Origin: Cytobacillus oceanisediminis 2691
GTDB taxonomy: Bacteria > Bacillota > Bacilli > Bacillales > Cytobacillaceae
DNA: 64,000 bases
Direction of reading: 5' to 3'
Assembly (NCBI RefSeq): GCF_007678455.1
Contig: NZ_VEEP01000011.1
Location: 1 to 64,000 of the forward strand
The translations under genes and the position numbers were made by a program. The notes beneath the pieces are model-generated. The model searched no databases and was not told where the DNA came from. It worked only from the letters and a program-made list of their open reading frames with translations. Positions 2,741-15,693 of this stretch are shown here, one piece after another (positions within the stretch are counted from its first letter, which is position 1; each line of letters opens with the position of its first letter).

Positions 2741-2769
2741 TTGATAGGCGGTAAAAGGAAATGTATAAT
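2741..2769 (+). promoter_or_regulatory. Sigma-A promoter of the heme/B12/STAS operon
   Basis: TTGATA (2741-2746), a 17-bp spacer and a perfect TATAAT (2764-2769) predict a start near 2776. That is 33 bases before the ATG at 2809, and it rules out the upstream in-frame ATG at 2761 as the translation start. Confidence 0.8.
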
Positions 2770-2808
2770 TGGACTATGTTTGCAAAAAAGAACAGGAGGA
2801 GATCGAAC

Positions 2809-3114
2809 ATGTATATCGTTCATTCAACAGTGGTTATTCCTGAAGATAAAGTTGATGAAGTGATTGGCATCTATCAAAAAAGATCAAGATTGGTAGATGA
2901 GTATGAGGGGTTCGTTTCCTTCCAATTGTTACAGAACGAAAATAACCCGACAGAACTGACCGTTCAGATATCATGGGATTCAAAAGAAAATTATATAAAA
3001 TATATTACAAGTGATGCATACAAGAAAGTACATGAACTAGAGAAAAATTATCCTGACCAGGAACTTGCAGCAATCCGTCCCTCGGTAGGCCGGTATAAGG
3101 TGGTAGCAAAATGA
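2809..3114 (+). CDS. IsdG/HmoB-like heme monooxygenase (ABM domain)
   Basis: A 101-residue dimeric ferredoxin-like (ABM) protein. The C-terminal half matches the IsdG/IsdI pattern: Trp56 in ISWDSKENY and His75 in SDAYKKVH correspond to the Trp and His of the Asn-Trp-His heme-degradation triad. The Asn position is not conserved (His5/Ser6 there). IsdG-type enzymes open heme to bilin products and iron, so a bilin- or heme-related role is plausible. The start is ATG 2809, with AGGAGG 10 bases upstream. An in-frame ATG at 2761 lies inside the promoter. It overlaps the next gene by 4 bases (ATGA) and is first in a four-gene operon. Confidence 0.75.
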   Translation: MYIVHSTVVIPEDKVDEVIGIYQKRSRLVDEYEGFVSFQLLQNENNPTELTVQISWDSKENYIKYITSDAYKKVHELEKNYPDQELAAIRPSVGRYKVVAK

Positions 3115-3464
3115 ATGAGGCTGTCATATCGTCGATCATTGAGGAAGTTACTGAGGGGATATACAATGATTTCCCTTTCCTGCTTGAAAAATACGGGGAG
3201 AGGGGACGCCAAAAGTGCAGAGAAGACAATGGACATCACATAAAATATATGCAGACTGCAGCAGATATGGATGATGACAAATATTTTATTGATTATGCAC
3301 ACTGGCTAAATGGAATTTTGACCTCCAGAGGAATGAAGACGGAACATCTGGTTGATAATTTTATGAGATTGAAGAAGGCATTTGAAAAAACAGATGAAGA
3401 GCTTAATGTAGTATTTATCAACATGCTTGAAAGTGCGATTAATTCATTAAGGGGTGTGAAATAA
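3111..3464 (+). CDS. Small helical protein, candidate stand-alone bilin-binding domain
   Basis: A 117-residue, predicted all-helical soluble protein. Cys36, His42-His43, Tyr46, Tyr58, Asp61-Tyr62, His64-Trp65, Arg73 and His79 cluster in the middle, an arrangement that suggests a cofactor pocket. I recall the pattern (Cys-x2-Asp...HH-x2-Tyr-Leu...Asp-Tyr-x-x-Trp-x4-Leu-x2-Arg) from N-terminal helical domains fused to B12-binding domains, including photocobilin-type receptors. That assignment is from memory and unverified. Translation is coupled to the heme monooxygenase by an ATGA overlap. If not bilin-binding, it is simply an uncharacterised stressosome-associated protein. Confidence 0.6.
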   Translation: MNEAVISSIIEEVTEGIYNDFPFLLEKYGERGRQKCREDNGHHIKYMQTAADMDDDKYFIDYAHWLNGILTSRGMKTEHLVDNFMRLKKAFEKTDEELNVVFINMLESAINSLRGVK

Positions 3465-3486
3465 CACCGGGATGAGGTGAGTGCCA

Positions 3487-4146
3487 ATGGAAAAAGCAAT
3501 CGAATTAGCCCAGCTTTTGCTCGAGGGCAATCAGGATGATTCATGGGCACTAATTGAACAAGAGTGCAAGGGATCAAAAGAAAGTTTATATATCTTTGAA
3601 AAAATAATCACCCCTGCAATGAGACAGATCGGTCATATGTGGGAAACAAACAAAATCACTGTTGCTGATGAGCATTTGGCGACATCAACATGTGTTTTTT
3701 TGCTTGCCCGTTACAATTGGGAAAAAAGAAGAACACTGCAAATTTCTCCTAATGGGAGAAGAGCGATGTTTCTTTGCGTTGAAAATGAACAGCACTACCT
3801 CGGACTGAAAATGGCCAGCCAGCTATTCAATGAGTATGGTTGGGAAACAAAGTTCCATGGTCCCAATCTTCCGCTAGAGTATGTGGTGAAAGCTGCACAA
3901 GAATGGAAAGCAAATGTAATATGCCTCTCTTTTTCAATCCTGTATCATGCTGAGCATCTTAGCCCATATATCCAAGCATTGGAAAAGCTTCCAAACCAGC
4001 CGGTTGTAATCGTTGGGGGCAGGCTGCTGGATCAATATGAATTTCATCGCTACGGATCAGACCGTACTATTTTCCATAAAAATATGGATGATGTGAAAAA
4101 TTGGCTTGGCCATCAGCATGGAGTGAAAATGAATGTCGGATCTTAA
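3487..4146 (+). CDS. CarH-like cobalamin-binding sensor without DNA-binding domain
   Basis: 219 residues. The N-terminal four-helix cap (about 1-85) contains W52-x9-E62-H63, the exact W-x9-EH spacing of the adenosylcobalamin-capping motif in CarH/LitR photoreceptors. The Rossmann-type B12 domain follows, with E101-x-H103-x-x-G106 supplying the lower axial histidine, and GGR near residue 178. Unlike CarH there is no MerR helix-turn-helix, so output must be by protein contact. The downstream STAS protein is the obvious partner, overlapping by 14 bases. ATG 3487 is preferred over GTG 3481 because GAGGTGA lies 6 bases before it. Confidence 0.85.
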   Translation: MEKAIELAQLLLEGNQDDSWALIEQECKGSKESLYIFEKIITPAMRQIGHMWETNKITVADEHLATSTCVFLLARYNWEKRRTLQISPNGRRAMFLCVENEQHYLGLKMASQLFNEYGWETKFHGPNLPLEYVVKAAQEWKANVICLSFSILYHAEHLSPYIQALEKLPNQPVVIVGGRLLDQYEFHRYGSDRTIFHKNMDDVKNWLGHQHGVKMNVGS

Positions 4147-4879
4147 ACATTTGCCATTACCATATTTTTTAATTGATATCGAATACAATATTCTTGCCTA
4201 TTCTGCTGCAAGTGAAGATGTTTTTTCTGTTGGGAAAAAATTTCTGGAGCTAGTGGATTGGGAAAGCCATAAAAAGATTAAGACCCTTTTTGAACACAAA
4301 GAAAGCAAGGCAGAAGGCGAACTGATCATGAAAACAAAATTTTCCCCTTATGCCTTGTTTGACATTAGTGTAAATTGGCATGAAGATAGAGGACATGTCA
4401 TTTGTATAGAAAAAAATCATCGATTATCTGAATTGGAAAATATTGTTGAAAAACATAGGGTTAGACTGGCAGAAACAGATTTGGAGCTGCTTGAAAAAAA
4501 AGAGCAGGTAGAAAAATCACTTCTTGAAATTAAAAGCCTTTCTTGTCCATTTATAAAATTAACGAAGACCTCAGCATTGGTTCCTTTATTTGGAAATTTA
4601 GATGAAAAATTGATTGGGCAAAACGAAGATAGAGTACTGAATCAATCACAGGAAGGTGGATATCAAGAGATCCTGTTTGATTTAAATGGGGTAGGAGAGC
4701 TGACCATTGAGGGAGTAGAAGCATTCATCTCCTTAGTTAAGGAGCTGCAAGTTATGGGTTTGCAACCGTCTATAATCGGTGTTAAACCCCACCATGCCTT
4801 TTTCCTGAACCATTCAACGGCCGTGCCAGATGTTCCGTATCTGAATAGTCTCAGCAAGGCCTTTAAAATATCGCATTAA
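4133..4879 (+). CDS. PAS-coiled-coil-STAS protein (RsbR-like output)
   Basis: 248 residues: a PAS-like N-terminal region (about 1-90), a charged coiled coil (about 95-145) and an RsbR-type STAS domain (about 148-248). LVPLFGNLDE matches the start of RsbR-family STAS domains (compare LLPLIGDIDT in the paralogue at 14863). The stretch equivalent to the phosphoacceptor loop reads DLNGVGELTIEG rather than DLSGVAMIDTMV. One Thr is kept in shifted context, and the second site of RsbRA (LTG/LSG) is replaced by IIG. It is the last gene of the operon and the likely output module of the B12 sensor. Partner-switching is inferred from family. Confidence 0.75.
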   Translation: MSDLKHLPLPYFLIDIEYNILAYSAASEDVFSVGKKFLELVDWESHKKIKTLFEHKESKAEGELIMKTKFSPYALFDISVNWHEDRGHVICIEKNHRLSELENIVEKHRVRLAETDLELLEKKEQVEKSLLEIKSLSCPFIKLTKTSALVPLFGNLDEKLIGQNEDRVLNQSQEGGYQEILFDLNGVGELTIEGVEAFISLVKELQVMGLQPSIIGVKPHHAFFLNHSTAVPDVPYLNSLSKAFKISH

Positions 4880-4884
4880 AGATG

Positions 4885-4914
4885 AACACTTCGATGGAAA
4901 TCGAGGTGTTTTTT
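4885..4914 (+). terminator. Terminator of the B12/STAS operon
   Basis: AACACTTCGAT-ggaa-ATCGAGGTGTT is an 11-bp stem with one G-U pair, followed by a T-run, 6 bases after the stop codon. Confidence 0.85.
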
Positions 4915-5184
4915 CTTGCTCTTTTTTTACTGGACGAAAGGATAGGCAAGCGTTTTCCCAATAAGTTAAGCTTCGTTTTTTACCATTTTTTTGATTTTGT
5001 TTTTCAACTCTATTTTGACATTTTCACATTATATATATTGAAAAGGACAAGTTCAAGTTGAGGATTACTTAGTGGGAAAAATGGAAGATGAATTGGTAAA
5101 TAACACCGGAAAGTTATGGTAAAAATGCATTGTTTTATCCTTCTTCCTTCTCGTTTTTCCCAATCATTTATGCCTATTTATTCG
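4915..5184. other. T-rich intergenic stretch
   Basis: AT-rich leader region between the B12/STAS operon terminator and the protease promoter. TTGACA at 5015-5020 has TATATT only 13 bases on, too close for a sigma-A promoter. I see no gene or convincing operator here, though a regulator site for the protease would be expected somewhere in it. Confidence 0.5.
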
Positions 5185-5214
5185 TTGATAAACACAGAAA
5201 ATTTGCAATATACT
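5185..5214 (+). promoter_or_regulatory. Sigma-A promoter of the subtilisin gene
   Basis: TTGATA (5185-5190), an 18-bp spacer and TATACT (5209-5214) predict initiation at about 5220-5222. Confidence 0.65.
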
Positions 5215-5220
5215 TAATCC

Positions 5221-5238
5221 TGCAGCCGACAAGCTGCA
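5221..5238 (+). promoter_or_regulatory. 5'-terminal mRNA hairpin in the protease leader
   Basis: TGCAGC-cgacaa-GCTGCA is a perfect 6-bp stem starting at the predicted transcript 5' end. The leader is only about 47 nt, with GAGAGGAG at 5253-5260. This mirrors the B. subtilis aprE leader, where a 5' stem-loop plus a strong ribosome binding site stabilises the message. Confidence 0.6.
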
Positions 5239-5267
5239 AATTTCTTAAAGGTGAGAGGAGCAAAAGG

Positions 5268-6542
5268 ATGAAGAAGAAAAGAGTTTTCGGATCCGCTGTA
5301 CTTAGTTTGGCAATGGGTGTTTCCATGTTCGCGACTGGCGCTTTTGGTGCCGGTGCACAGGAAAGCCAGGATACTTATCGTGTGTTAATTCAGGGTCCGA
5401 GTGCAGAAAAAGCTAAAGTTAAAGAACAATATGGGAAACGCTGGGATTTTGGAGGCCAAGGTTTTACAACTGAAGTGAACAGCAAGCAATATCAAGCATT
5501 GTTGAAAAACAAGAATATTGAAGTGTCCCAGGTTGGCACGCATACAATCGATGCCCGAGTAGAAGCAAATGGAAAAGGCAAAGGTGACTATTCGACCATG
5601 GCATCTTATCCGTCAGACCAGACACCATGGGGCATTCAAGCAATTTATAACGATAACTACATCCAAGCGACAAGCGGTGGGGATGGAATCAAGGTAGCTG
5701 TCCTAGACACAGGCATTAACCGAAACCATATTGATTTGACAGACAATGTTGAACAATGTAAGGATTTCACCCAAACTTCTTCATCGATGGTTAATGGGAC
5801 TTGTACTGACCGCCAGGGCCATGGTACACATGTTGCCGGAACTGCTGTAGCAAATGGCGGTTATGATGGAGCAGGTATCTATGGAGTTGCTCCTCAAGCA
5901 GAACTCTGGGGCTATAAAGTCCTCGGGGACAATGGATCCGGATATTCTGATGATATTGCTGGTGCCATCCGCCATGCTGCCGATGAAGGTGTCCGTACAG
6001 GATCAAAGGTCGTCATCTCGATGTCACTTGGTTCAAGCGGCAAGGATTCAATGATTGCAAGTGCTGTTGACTATGCATACAGCAAAGGTGCATTAGTGGT
6101 AGCAGCAGCAGGGAACAGTGGTCCGAGTGCCAATACGATTGGTTATCCAGGCGCATTAACAAATGCAATCGCTGTAGCATCACTGGATAATACATTTGTC
6201 AATGGAACACACAAAGTATCTGATTTCTCTTCTCGTGGCAACCCAAATACTGACGGCGACTACTACATCCAGGAAAAGGACGTTGAAGTATCAGCACCTG
6301 GCGGCGGAATCTATTCAACAGCTGTAGATGGAAACTATACAACAATGAGCGGCACATCTATGGCAACGCCACACATTTCAGGCCTTGCAGCTAAACTGTG
6401 GTCTTCGAATAAATCATGGAGCAACTCTCAGCTCCGTACAGAAATTCAAAGACGCGCGAAGCTTTATGACATCAAAGGCGGAACTGGAGCTGGAACTGGT
6501 GATGATTACGCATCAGGATTCGGTTTCCCTCGCGTAAAATAA
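5268..6542 (+). CDS. Secreted subtilisin-family serine protease (S8)
   Basis: A 424-residue preproenzyme. It has a signal peptide (about 1-28), an I9-type propeptide (about 33-95, YRVLIQG to SQV) and an S8 domain with Asp in VAVLDTGI, His in GHGTHVAGT and Ser in GTSMATPHISG. Two cysteines flanking the His region (EQCKDF and GTCTDR) can form a disulfide, as in thermostable Ak.1/EA1-type Bacillus subtilisins. The C-terminal WSNSQLRTEIQRRA segment also fits that group. The start is ATG 5268 (Lys-rich signal peptide, GAGAGGAG upstream), not the longer in-frame ATG at 5130. The NprR-type regulator and peptide lie just downstream, suggesting cell-density control. Confidence 0.93.
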   Translation: MKKKRVFGSAVLSLAMGVSMFATGAFGAGAQESQDTYRVLIQGPSAEKAKVKEQYGKRWDFGGQGFTTEVNSKQYQALLKNKNIEVSQVGTHTIDARVEANGKGKGDYSTMASYPSDQTPWGIQAIYNDNYIQATSGGDGIKVAVLDTGINRNHIDLTDNVEQCKDFTQTSSSMVNGTCTDRQGHGTHVAGTAVANGGYDGAGIYGVAPQAELWGYKVLGDNGSGYSDDIAGAIRHAADEGVRTGSKVVISMSLGSSGKDSMIASAVDYAYSKGALVVAAAGNSGPSANTIGYPGALTNAIAVASLDNTFVNGTHKVSDFSSRGNPNTDGDYYIQEKDVEVSAPGGGIYSTAVDGNYTTMSGTSMATPHISGLAAKLWSSNKSWSNSQLRTEIQRRAKLYDIKGGTGAGTGDDYASGFGFPRVK

Positions 6543-14862: not shown

Positions 14863-15693
14863 TTGCATAGAAATCAGGAGTTATACAATTTTTTAAGGGA
14901 AAATAGTCGGAATTTAACGGAGGAATGGCATCAAAATATCGATAAAGAAAATACCGCAGGTGTATACGCCTCTAGTGATCCAGATGTCGTTTCTGCGCTG
15001 AAAGAACAAAATCATGAATTTCACCTTCATTTCATTGAATTATTCAAAAAGGCAGAAGGGGAATTCTTTCAGGACTTTAAACCATGGATCGAGAAGATTG
15101 CAAGTGATGGCGAGCATGTGAAAACTCCGATTCAGTTTGTGATAAAGGAATTTAAAAATGTAAGAAACCAGTACTTTGATTATATCCGCCGATTTGCAAA
15201 GTTACATCCTGAAATAGCAAGAGAAGAGGTCGATTTTTGGTATGATATCATCCTTAAAGAAATGGATGAGGTAATCCTGCGTTTTATAGAAGCTACGTAT
15301 AAATACTCCCAGGGTGTGTTGAAAGCACAGCAGGAAACAATCAATGAATTAAGCGCCCCTGTCATTTCGCTGACGAACCGTCAAGGGTTGCTGCCGCTTA
15401 TTGGGGATATTGATACATCAAGGGCTAAAATGATCCTTGAAAATACATTGCATCAGTGCACCCAAAGGGGAATCCAACATTTGTTTGTTGATTTATCAGG
15501 GGTTGCAATGATTGATACCATGGTTGCCCATCAGATATTCCAGCTGTTGAATGCCTTGAAACTAATAGGGGTAAATGCAACACTTTCCGGTATGCGCCCT
15601 GAGATTGCACAAACAGCTGTGCAGCTGGGAATTTCCTTTAAAGAAATAGACATTAAAACGAATCTTGCCCAGGCTATTGACCAGCGTAAATAA
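14863..15693 (+). CDS. rsbRD: Stressosome co-antagonist of the RsbR family
   Basis: 276 residues: an all-helical, globin-like non-heme N-terminal domain (about 1-150) and an RsbR-type STAS domain (about 160-276). The STAS has the full motif set: LLPLIGDIDTSRA, DLSGVAMIDTMVAHQIF with the phosphoacceptor Thr, and LSGMRPEIAQTA, where the second site is Ser. The N-terminal sequence and length fit B. subtilis RsbRD (YqhA) best. Translation starts at TTG 14863 behind AGGGGGG. It acts upstream of sigma-B as part of the stressosome shell. Monocistronic here. Confidence 0.85.
   Translation: MHRNQELYNFLRENSRNLTEEWHQNIDKENTAGVYASSDPDVVSALKEQNHEFHLHFIELFKKAEGEFFQDFKPWIEKIASDGEHVKTPIQFVIKEFKNVRNQYFDYIRRFAKLHPEIAREEVDFWYDIILKEMDEVILRFIEATYKYSQGVLKAQQETINELSAPVISLTNRQGLLPLIGDIDTSRAKMILENTLHQCTQRGIQHLFVDLSGVAMIDTMVAHQIFQLLNALKLIGVNATLSGMRPEIAQTAVQLGISFKEIDIKTNLAQAIDQRK

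Follow-up and report, generated by a model that had tools for sequence, protein, structure and literature searches.

The first 64,000 nucleotides of contig NZ_VEEP01000011.1 from Cytobacillus oceanisediminis 2691, read on the forward strand and called the window here, contain four neighbouring genes that recur in many Bacillus-like bacteria and probably encode a predicted light sensor based on vitamin B12 and a bile pigment, the output end of which differs between relatives. We consider it likely that this operon is a modular two-chromophore sensor, namely a photocobilin divided into separate proteins. All four open reading frames (ORFs) lie on the plus strand. ORF1 (2809-3114) encodes a 101-residue protein with an IsdG-like ABM domain, ORF2 (3111-3464) a 117-residue stand-alone globin of the bilin-binding type, ORF3 (3487-4146) a 219-residue B12-binding protein composed of a four-helix bundle and a Rossmann domain, and ORF4 (4133-4879) a 248-residue putative output protein in which a coiled coil connects a PAS and a STAS domain. 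ORF1 and ORF2 share a four-base ATGA overlap, ORF2 and ORF3 are 22 bases apart, and ORF3 and ORF4 overlap by 14 bases. These coordinates bear out the original prediction, made from the nucleotide sequence, of four tightly packed genes.

Sequence comparison places ORF3 among the B12 proteins of the photocobilin and CarH type. It matches the Pfam families B12-binding_2 (expectation value E of 8e-13) and B12-binding (1.9e-12), and the profile of its orthologues, when compared with the solved structures of the PDB, retrieved the photocobilin SasPcob at 2.5e-19, level with 8jbs, a putative cobalamin-binding protein (3.2e-19), and followed by 1y80 (8e-12) and CarH (1.3e-8). The CarH motifs claimed for the third gene, GHMW-x9-EH and E-x-H-x-x-G, are present and supply the residues W52, E62-H63 and E101-x-H103. 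W52, E62, H63, E101 and H103 are invariant in 17 ORF3 orthologues, and they are kept in 56, 56, 57, 58 and 57, respectively, of the 58 hits at a set of 80 named loci; these are the best 80 of 157 loci encoding a relative, collected with patterns that included the stretches [KR][CT][RKT]EDNxHH and FxDY[AT]xWL. Compared with the signature of light-responsive CarH-type B12 proteins, GxxW, EH, GxxH and GxxxP, as given in the available text of PMC11796333, ORF3 contains GHMW, EH and GPNLP as well as the His of GxxH. It also has the E/D-x-H form that is used for photocobilins. Two more B12 matches in the C. oceanisediminis 2691 genome (C11 and C422) fall in frames of 295-303 residues with an N terminus that looks MerR-like by eye. 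Six other genomes (G117, G197, G198, G223, G224 and G271) have three ORF3-type B12 matches each at E of 1e-40 or better, which suggests several B12 sensor-output pairs in some Bacillales.

Comparison of both sequence and predicted structure identifies ORF2 as a photocobilin-type bilin globin that exists as a protein of its own. The AlphaFold2 model, built with 25 orthologues, consists of five helices with a mean predicted local distance difference test score (pLDDT) of 95.6. Foldseek matched this model with a probability of 1.00, and SasPcob was equal best with a template-modelling (TM) score of 0.77 over 113 columns. Among the best 50 of 299 matches at E of 10 or lower, 48 are phycobiliproteins, smURFP, a bacterial fluorescent protein or SasPcob, and the heme globins, DosC and a hemoglobin, take ranks 34 and 49. 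A broad profile (A5) of 49 diverse homologues, comprising 49 of 51 listed sequences after leaving out a near-copy of the window (L002) and a sequence with Glu at position 39 (L156), found SasPcob as the best solved structure at 1.7e-4 and phycocyanin at 1.6e-3, with no heme globin among its 12 matches at E of 1 or lower. We therefore rejected a heme-globin identity of ORF2, because phycobiliproteins and the photocobilin outranked heme globins in Foldseek and none occurred among those profile matches. The original prediction had taken the 117-residue protein for a detached bilin-binding domain and had named an unrelated fold as the result that would overturn this view; the globin fold of the phycobiliprotein and photocobilin kind, the SasPcob match of the broad profile and a fused form in other genomes (see below) all agree with it. 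Taken alone, ORF2 matched the Pfam family Phycobilisome at E of 0.13, below the cut-off, and phycocyanin alpha at 0.066. The same Pfam family was matched at E of 1 or lower by 7 of 25 ORF2 family members, the best at 1.6e-5, and its search across the C. oceanisediminis 2691 genome gave no match.

The residues that contact the bilin in photocobilins can be traced in ORF2. D39 and W65 align with residues 265 and 291 of SasPcob chain 8j2x in the printed alignments. The alignment of the ORF3 profile equates Trp61 of the B12 domain, in the SasPcob paper numbering, with residue 56 of this chain, so that residues 265 and 291 correspond to Asp270 and Trp296, which the available text of PMC10979010 describes as biliverdin-contact residues. 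ORF2 thus combines both bilin-contact residues with the globin fold of photocobilins. D39 and W65 are invariant among 25 globins collected without motif selection. Beyond the window, D39 is kept in 112 of 115 collected globins (the exceptions being L147, L148 and L156) and W65 in 115 of 115, where 80 of the 115 stem from a motif-biased search and their counts of 80/80 for both residues are biased accordingly. D39 is found in 47 of the 49 globins of the A5 set, from which L156 had been left out. Six loci (L145, L155, L146, L147, L148 and L149) encode a second, divergent type of stand-alone globin with neither ABM nor B12 matches in the stretch read; this globin adjoins a PAS histidine kinase at L145 and L155, and it lacks the bilin Asp at L147 and L148.

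A further residue, Cys36, aligns with the Cys in the KCARD stretch of phycocyanin, which is the position of the phycocyanin chromophore Cys. The corresponding stretch in the window is KCREDN, giving a CxED motif. The A1 set has Cys36 in 22 of its 25 globins, and the named set in 76 of the 77 that adjoin an ABM gene; the named set was found partly through a pattern permitting C or T at globin position 36. Cys36 occurs in 0/9 fused chains and in 0/6 globins of the second stand-alone type, none of which has an ABM gene nearby. Three loci have Cys36 without an adjacent ABM gene (L077, L087 and L100), six have Thr at position 36 with ABM present (L022, L026, L027, L107, L151 and L152), and Thr is also found at L150, where an ABM remnant persists, with Cys at L153 and at L156, where ABM is degenerate. 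Cys36 of the globin therefore goes largely with ABM.

The arrangement extends well beyond one genome, and a gene order unique to this genome, which the original prediction had named as refuting it, is not what was found: 44 of the 80 named loci have the full order ABM-globin-B12-PAS/STAS, and the components are permuted among loci while remaining of the same kinds. Mesobacillus, Cytobacillus, Domibacillus, Bhargavaea and Fictibacillus are among the named hosts with all four genes in this order, and Priestia showed the ABM-globin pair only. Within the genome collection, Mesobacillus and unplaced Bacillus strains are the closest relatives with names; the very closest carries the label Chryseobacterium sp. 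ISL-80, which is at odds with its neighbours in the list. A survey of 249 genomes of the order detected the globin in 102, the ABM subfamily (E of 1e-20 or better) in 93 and the B12 orthologue (E of 1e-40 or better) in 106; globin and B12 occurred together in 92, globin without B12 in 10, B12 without globin in 14, and neither in 133. These are raw counts that ignore kinship among the genomes, and the absences are upper bounds, as this search and that of 398 genomes described below scored only part of the first-look candidates. Inspection of nine of the ten globin-only genomes revealed a decayed operon in G006, an interrupted or divergent B12 gene adjoining the globin in G087, G201 and G203, an interrupted fused gene in G137, and no B12 gene in the stretch read in G066, G110, G123 and G218. 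Three of the 14 B12-only genomes were read, and beside the B12 gene they have a PAS-STAS gene (G099 and G220) or an unassigned PAS-like gene (G054). In a set of 61 genomes, a B12 orthologue at E of 1e-50 or better was present in 25 of 25 with an intact globin, including G041 and G046, where it is not adjacent, and in 2 of 34 without a globin match.

At the level of the phylum, the globin profile matched 15 of 398 genomes, and 12 of these lie outside the order. Nine of ten loci fetched from those 12 genomes encode the globin followed by the B12 part in one chain of about 360 residues, and the equivalents of D39 and W65 are kept in 9/9 of these fused chains. Pfam searches with neighbours of the fused genes identified three hybrid histidine kinases (L162, L169 and L171) and three GGDEF proteins (L166, L167 and L168), and no ABM match was found near the fused genes in the stretches fetched. 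At the tenth locus (L170, G366), an ORF for a group II intron maturase at 4022-5449, with RVT_1 and GIIM matches, separates the globin and B12 halves. Two species of the same genus (L117 and L118; G006:C29 and G012:C15) retain the globin as two pieces on opposite strands, with no ABM or B12 match left, and PAS-STAS sequence persists in both, as two pieces in L117.

ORF4 is, judging from its sequence and predicted model, a PAS-coil-STAS output protein; in related operons, its place is taken by a histidine kinase with PAS or by a GGDEF protein. The model (mean pLDDT of 80 and predicted TM score of 0.45) comprises the strands and helices of a PAS domain (about 4154-4411, plus strand), a long coil and a STAS domain (about 4550-4807, plus strand). 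Foldseek ranked YtvA at the top (2.2e-12, TM score of 0.42, with the domains not superposed together), followed by RsbS and the stressosome RsbR. The Pfam family STAS gave 21.5 bits, just below the cut-off of 22.6, and was matched at E of 1 or lower by 16 of 16 scanned ORF4 family members, while the match to NCBIfam YtvA_fam reached 49 bits (cut-off of 250) over the coil and STAS part only. The STAS fold expected at the end of ORF4 was thus found, but its assignment to the RsbR type did not hold in other respects. RsbR has two phosphothreonine sites and RsbS one Ser site, the second RsbR site being also the RsbS site; ORF4 has neither the Thr pair nor the Ser, with Glu and Ile at these positions. 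Among 22 ORF4 homologues, the first site is Ser in two and the second is Ser or Thr in three (L004, L006 and L018). Furthermore, the domain preceding the coil has PAS topology in the model and in Foldseek instead of the N-terminal non-heme globin domain of RsbR, and inspection of the ORF4 sequence found no flavin-binding Cys motif of LOV domains.

The outputs are exchangeable among relatives. At three loci (L056, L077 and L101), the gene after B12 encodes a protein whose N terminus is of the ORF4 type, as detected by tblastn, but which continues into HisKA-HATPase domains (Pfam) instead of STAS. GGDEF proteins occur in the cluster at L152 and L153, and the B12 gene adjoins a short protein with only the ORF4-type N terminus at L100, L110, L111 and L157. 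This exchange marks ABM, globin and B12, perhaps with PAS, as the sensor part and the remainder as output. At L100, L110, L111 and L113, the B12 gene and a short PAS-like protein stand beside a CheB/CheR-type gene, as seen with Pfam for the L100 neighbour and by eye for the others; the short partner at L113 has no match to ORF4. The C. oceanisediminis 2691 genome contains an rsbR-S-T-U-V-W-sigB-rsbX cluster, read from the ORF sequences and with STAS matches in three ORFs, together with two matches to the cobalamin adenosyltransferase family Cob_adeno_trans, so that a receiving pathway and the means of making adenosylcobalamin exist. There are 21 STAS matches in this genome in total. An RsbR-type paralogue whose STAS domain does have the two Thr phosphosites lies within the window at 14863-15693, about 10 kb from the operon.

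If the operon is indeed a divided photocobilin, ORF2 would carry a linear tetrapyrrole and dock on ORF3 as the two SasPcob domains do. Green light, absorbed by adenosylcobalamin itself, or red light, captured by the bilin and relayed to adenosylcobalamin, would break the Co-C bond, and this break would alter the ORF2-ORF3 assembly. The PAS domain of ORF4 may read the altered assembly and the coil may relay the change to STAS, which would in turn act on the stressosome and sigma-B pathway encoded in the genome. Given the Glu and Ile at the RsbR phosphosites, the feed of ORF4 into the stressosome is a step that we infer. ORF1 would produce the bilin, modify it or deliver it, which is the least certain step.

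ORF1 belongs to the ABM fold family, with a Pfam ABM match at 2.3e-11, and its profile has IsdG-type proteins as the nearest solved structures (8avh at 3.8e-8, TT1380 at 6.6e-8 and IsdI at 5.3e-6); NCBIfam HmuQ was matched at 1.9e-9 with 38 bits, where the cut-off is 130. According to the available text of PMC6018153, the Asn of the IsdG triad is critical, the Trp ruffles the heme and the His is the ligand. Aligned with IsdI, ORF1 has Ser6 for Asn, Tyr65 for Trp and a retained His75, so it lacks the Asn-Trp-His triad of IsdG-type heme oxygenases. The original prediction that the triad Trp and His are kept was hence right for His75 and wrong for Trp, as the sole Trp in ORF1, W56, lies elsewhere. 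Among 77 homologues, the Asn position is Ser in all 76 aligned there (one has a gap), position 65 is Trp in 67 and Tyr in 10, and the heme-ligand His is kept in 75. In view of the roles reported for these residues in IsdG, catalysis by ORF1 is not to be assumed. In 93/93 genomes, the ABM subfamily lies directly 5' of the globin gene and in the same orientation, with an overlap or a gap of at most 115 bases, and at E of 1e-20 it was never found without the globin among the 249 genomes of the order, which ties the job of ORF1 to the globin. Canonical heme oxygenase (PF01126) was found in 0/61 genomes, in a search that was restricted to this heme-degrading family and whose control was positive in 3 of 14 known genomes; the bilin would therefore come most simply from an ABM protein or from outside. 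In the closest relative (L002/L030, G013:C13), whose globin is 90% identical, the ABM gene aligns as two pieces in different frames, by a frameshift or a sequencing error.

We see a chance only somewhat short of even that ORF1 is not an enzyme within this sensor, serving instead as a bilin or heme carrier, a lyase-like loader or a structural subunit, while a different heme-degrading protein of the cell, for instance either of the two further ABM proteins encoded in the genome (one of them within a 172-residue frame), would supply the bilin. The uniform Ser at the position of the critical Asn and the Tyr at the triad Trp position in the window fit such a role. The retention of His in 75 and of Trp in 67 of the 77 homologues, on the other hand, exceeds the needs of a dead fold, and canonical heme oxygenase, in a search restricted to that family, was found in none of the 61 genomes, which makes some ABM protein a likely bilin source. 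A further reading, in which ORF1 is a dedicated chromophore factory or loader, appears rather unlikely to us; here, an IsdG-type ABM enzyme with a Ser-Trp/Tyr-His centre would open heme to a bilin other than biliverdin, similar to staphylobilin or formyloxobilin, and pass it to Cys36 of the globin.

Several observations weigh against a divided photocobilin. The Foldseek E-values for ORF2 are weak, the best being 0.03 with no match at 0.001 or better, and the first, narrower profile of 25 sequences, which retrieved phycocyanin at 0.0089 and AbPcob at 0.034, reached SasPcob at 0.23 only and thus not significantly; the case for ORF2 therefore rests on the TM-score, the Foldseek probability, the broader profile and the fusion. 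The single sequence of ORF3 matches 8jbs (1.2e-13) ahead of SasPcob (4.3e-9) and CarH (4.2e-8), and its version of the GxxH signature has Asn in place of Gly. On the output side, the STAS domain of ORF4 has Glu and Ile where RsbR has phosphothreonines, and the GGDEF partners have no sequence match to the PAS domain or N terminus of ORF4, a likeness being seen by eye only. ABM and globin stand alone within 2.5 kb at 22 of the 80 named loci, and the B12 orthologue occurs without a globin match in 14 of the 249 genomes, so globin and B12 are not obligate partners. Finally, the broken ABM frame in the closest relative, G013 (also L030), and the decayed operon in G006 and G012 indicate that the system is dispensable.

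Some of these observations would also suit a sensor of tetrapyrrole and cobalamin status that works independently of light, in which ORF2 binds heme or a breakdown product of it, ORF3 reports adenosylcobalamin, and the output answers heme and B12 or oxygen. The ABM-globin pairs without B12 nearby fit heme or bilin handling by themselves, ORF1 is nearest to heme-degrading enzymes, three of the 115 globins lack D39, and a known photocobilin, AbDPcob, is reported to hold biliverdin weakly in the published text available. We nevertheless regard this explanation as improbable, since none of the 17 orthologues departs from W52, E62, H63 and E101-x-H103, the motifs for the adenosyl pocket and the Co ligand in light-sensing B12 proteins, and since the broad globin profile ranks photocobilins and phycobiliproteins at the top, heme globins being absent from its 12 matches. 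An operon for iron or heme acquisition, in which ORF1 frees heme iron and ORF2-ORF4 are bystanders, would account for the ABM family of ORF1 but is very hard to credit and was disfavoured, because ORF1 is constantly accompanied, in permuted orders, by a globin of the bilin type, a B12 sensor and outputs for signalling, and because the ABM subfamily, at E of 1e-20, keeps to the globin across the 249 genomes.

The four genes are framed by plausible transcription signals on the plus strand. A vegetative-type promoter, TTGATA-17-TATAAT at 2741-2769, scores 11/12 and lies 39 bases 5' of the ORF1 start; the scanned stretch has 15 promoter-like sites, where 12.3 are expected by chance, and this one scores highest. 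A -35/-10 pair scoring at least 10/12 precedes ORF1 in 15 of 18 aligned upstream regions, the window included, and is missing from L004, L008 and L015. Downstream of ORF4, a terminator-like hairpin of 12 pairs with a T-run is located at 4884-4911. The promoter sequence and a terminator-like hairpin after the fourth gene, both part of the original prediction, could thus be recovered.

Bacillales do not photosynthesise. If the divided photocobilin is real, a two-pigment sensor for green and red light would be widespread in this order, given the globin in 102 of its 249 genomes, and would offer a testable route by which red or green light could reach sigma-B stress signalling; in Bacillus subtilis, SigB is activated by blue light and by red light, according to the PMC3019169 abstract. 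The fate of bilins from bacterial heme breakdown has been called largely unknown (PMC6018153, available text), and the system of ORF1 may reveal a use for bilins from IsdG-type enzymes. Should ORF1 be the source of the chromophore, a photoreceptor would work on an IsdG-type product and be linked with the photochemistry of B12 as well as, by way of PAS-STAS, with the general stress response. Split by nature and fitted with STAS, histidine kinase or GGDEF outputs, the parts could also serve as a kit for optogenetics and for dissecting the coupling between bilin and B12.

Among known systems, YtvA, a blue-light receptor of LOV-STAS type whose solved structure is titled a regulator of stress response, resembles ORF4 in having a PAS-type sensor, a helix and STAS, and it is the top structural match. 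Unlike YtvA, ORF4 shows no LOV Cys motif in its sequence, and light input would come via the partner proteins. ORF3 shares the type of B12 domain and the motifs with the B12 photoreceptors CarH and LitR, but it is without the MerR DNA-binding domain of CarH and LitR. The photoglobin family of Schneider et al. 2022 is reported to be a non-heme globin associated with B12 and signalling domains, and the fused globin-B12 chains of about 360 residues fit this family.

Photocobilins such as SasPcob and AbDPcob carry the B12 domain first and the bilin globin last in one chain (Zhang et al. 2024, PMC10979010, available text). Photocobilins are characterised by binding both adenosylcobalamin and biliverdin and by cleavage of Co-C in red and green light. 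The Bacillales proteins resemble them in the W-x-EH and E/D-x-H motifs of the B12 part and in the globin Asp and Trp at the biliverdin-contact positions, and GGDEF output is common to AbDPcob and some of the split relatives. Unlike the photocobilins, ORF2 and ORF3 are separate proteins, the fused form being found in other genomes of the phylum, the globin gene is 5' of the B12 gene, and most split globins have a Cys at the phycobiliprotein attachment position; nor does the available text of PMC10979010 describe a dedicated ABM protein for photocobilins. The original prediction knew of no described system with this split arrangement, which goes too far, as the literature on Myxococcales already contains separate genes for the globin and the B12 protein in association with heme oxygenase. 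In these BBAG-2 clusters, as far as the available text goes, a bilin-binding globin and a B12-binding protein are separate genes, like ORF2 and ORF3, with a heme oxygenase encoded either within the cluster itself or at another place in the genome, and the tested BBAG-2 globins bind biliverdin (Rockwell et al. 2023, PMC10151467). The same text describes a canonical heme oxygenase, a bilin reductase in pre-2 and the Cys motif RGMC, whereas the Bacillales operon has an ABM protein in the place of heme oxygenase (PF01126 in 0/61), the CxED motif within KCREDN in the window instead of RGMC, and PAS-STAS, kinase or GGDEF partners. The words Bacill-, Firmicutes and IsdG are absent from the main text of PMC10151467. 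We found no description of an ABM-globin-B12-STAS operon in Bacillales in the literature consulted, which did not include the photoglobin paper of Schneider et al. 2022, where overlap is possible. What looks new here is the Bacillales form of the system, with its dedicated ABM protein, no canonical heme oxygenase found in the 61 genomes, and exchangeable outputs.

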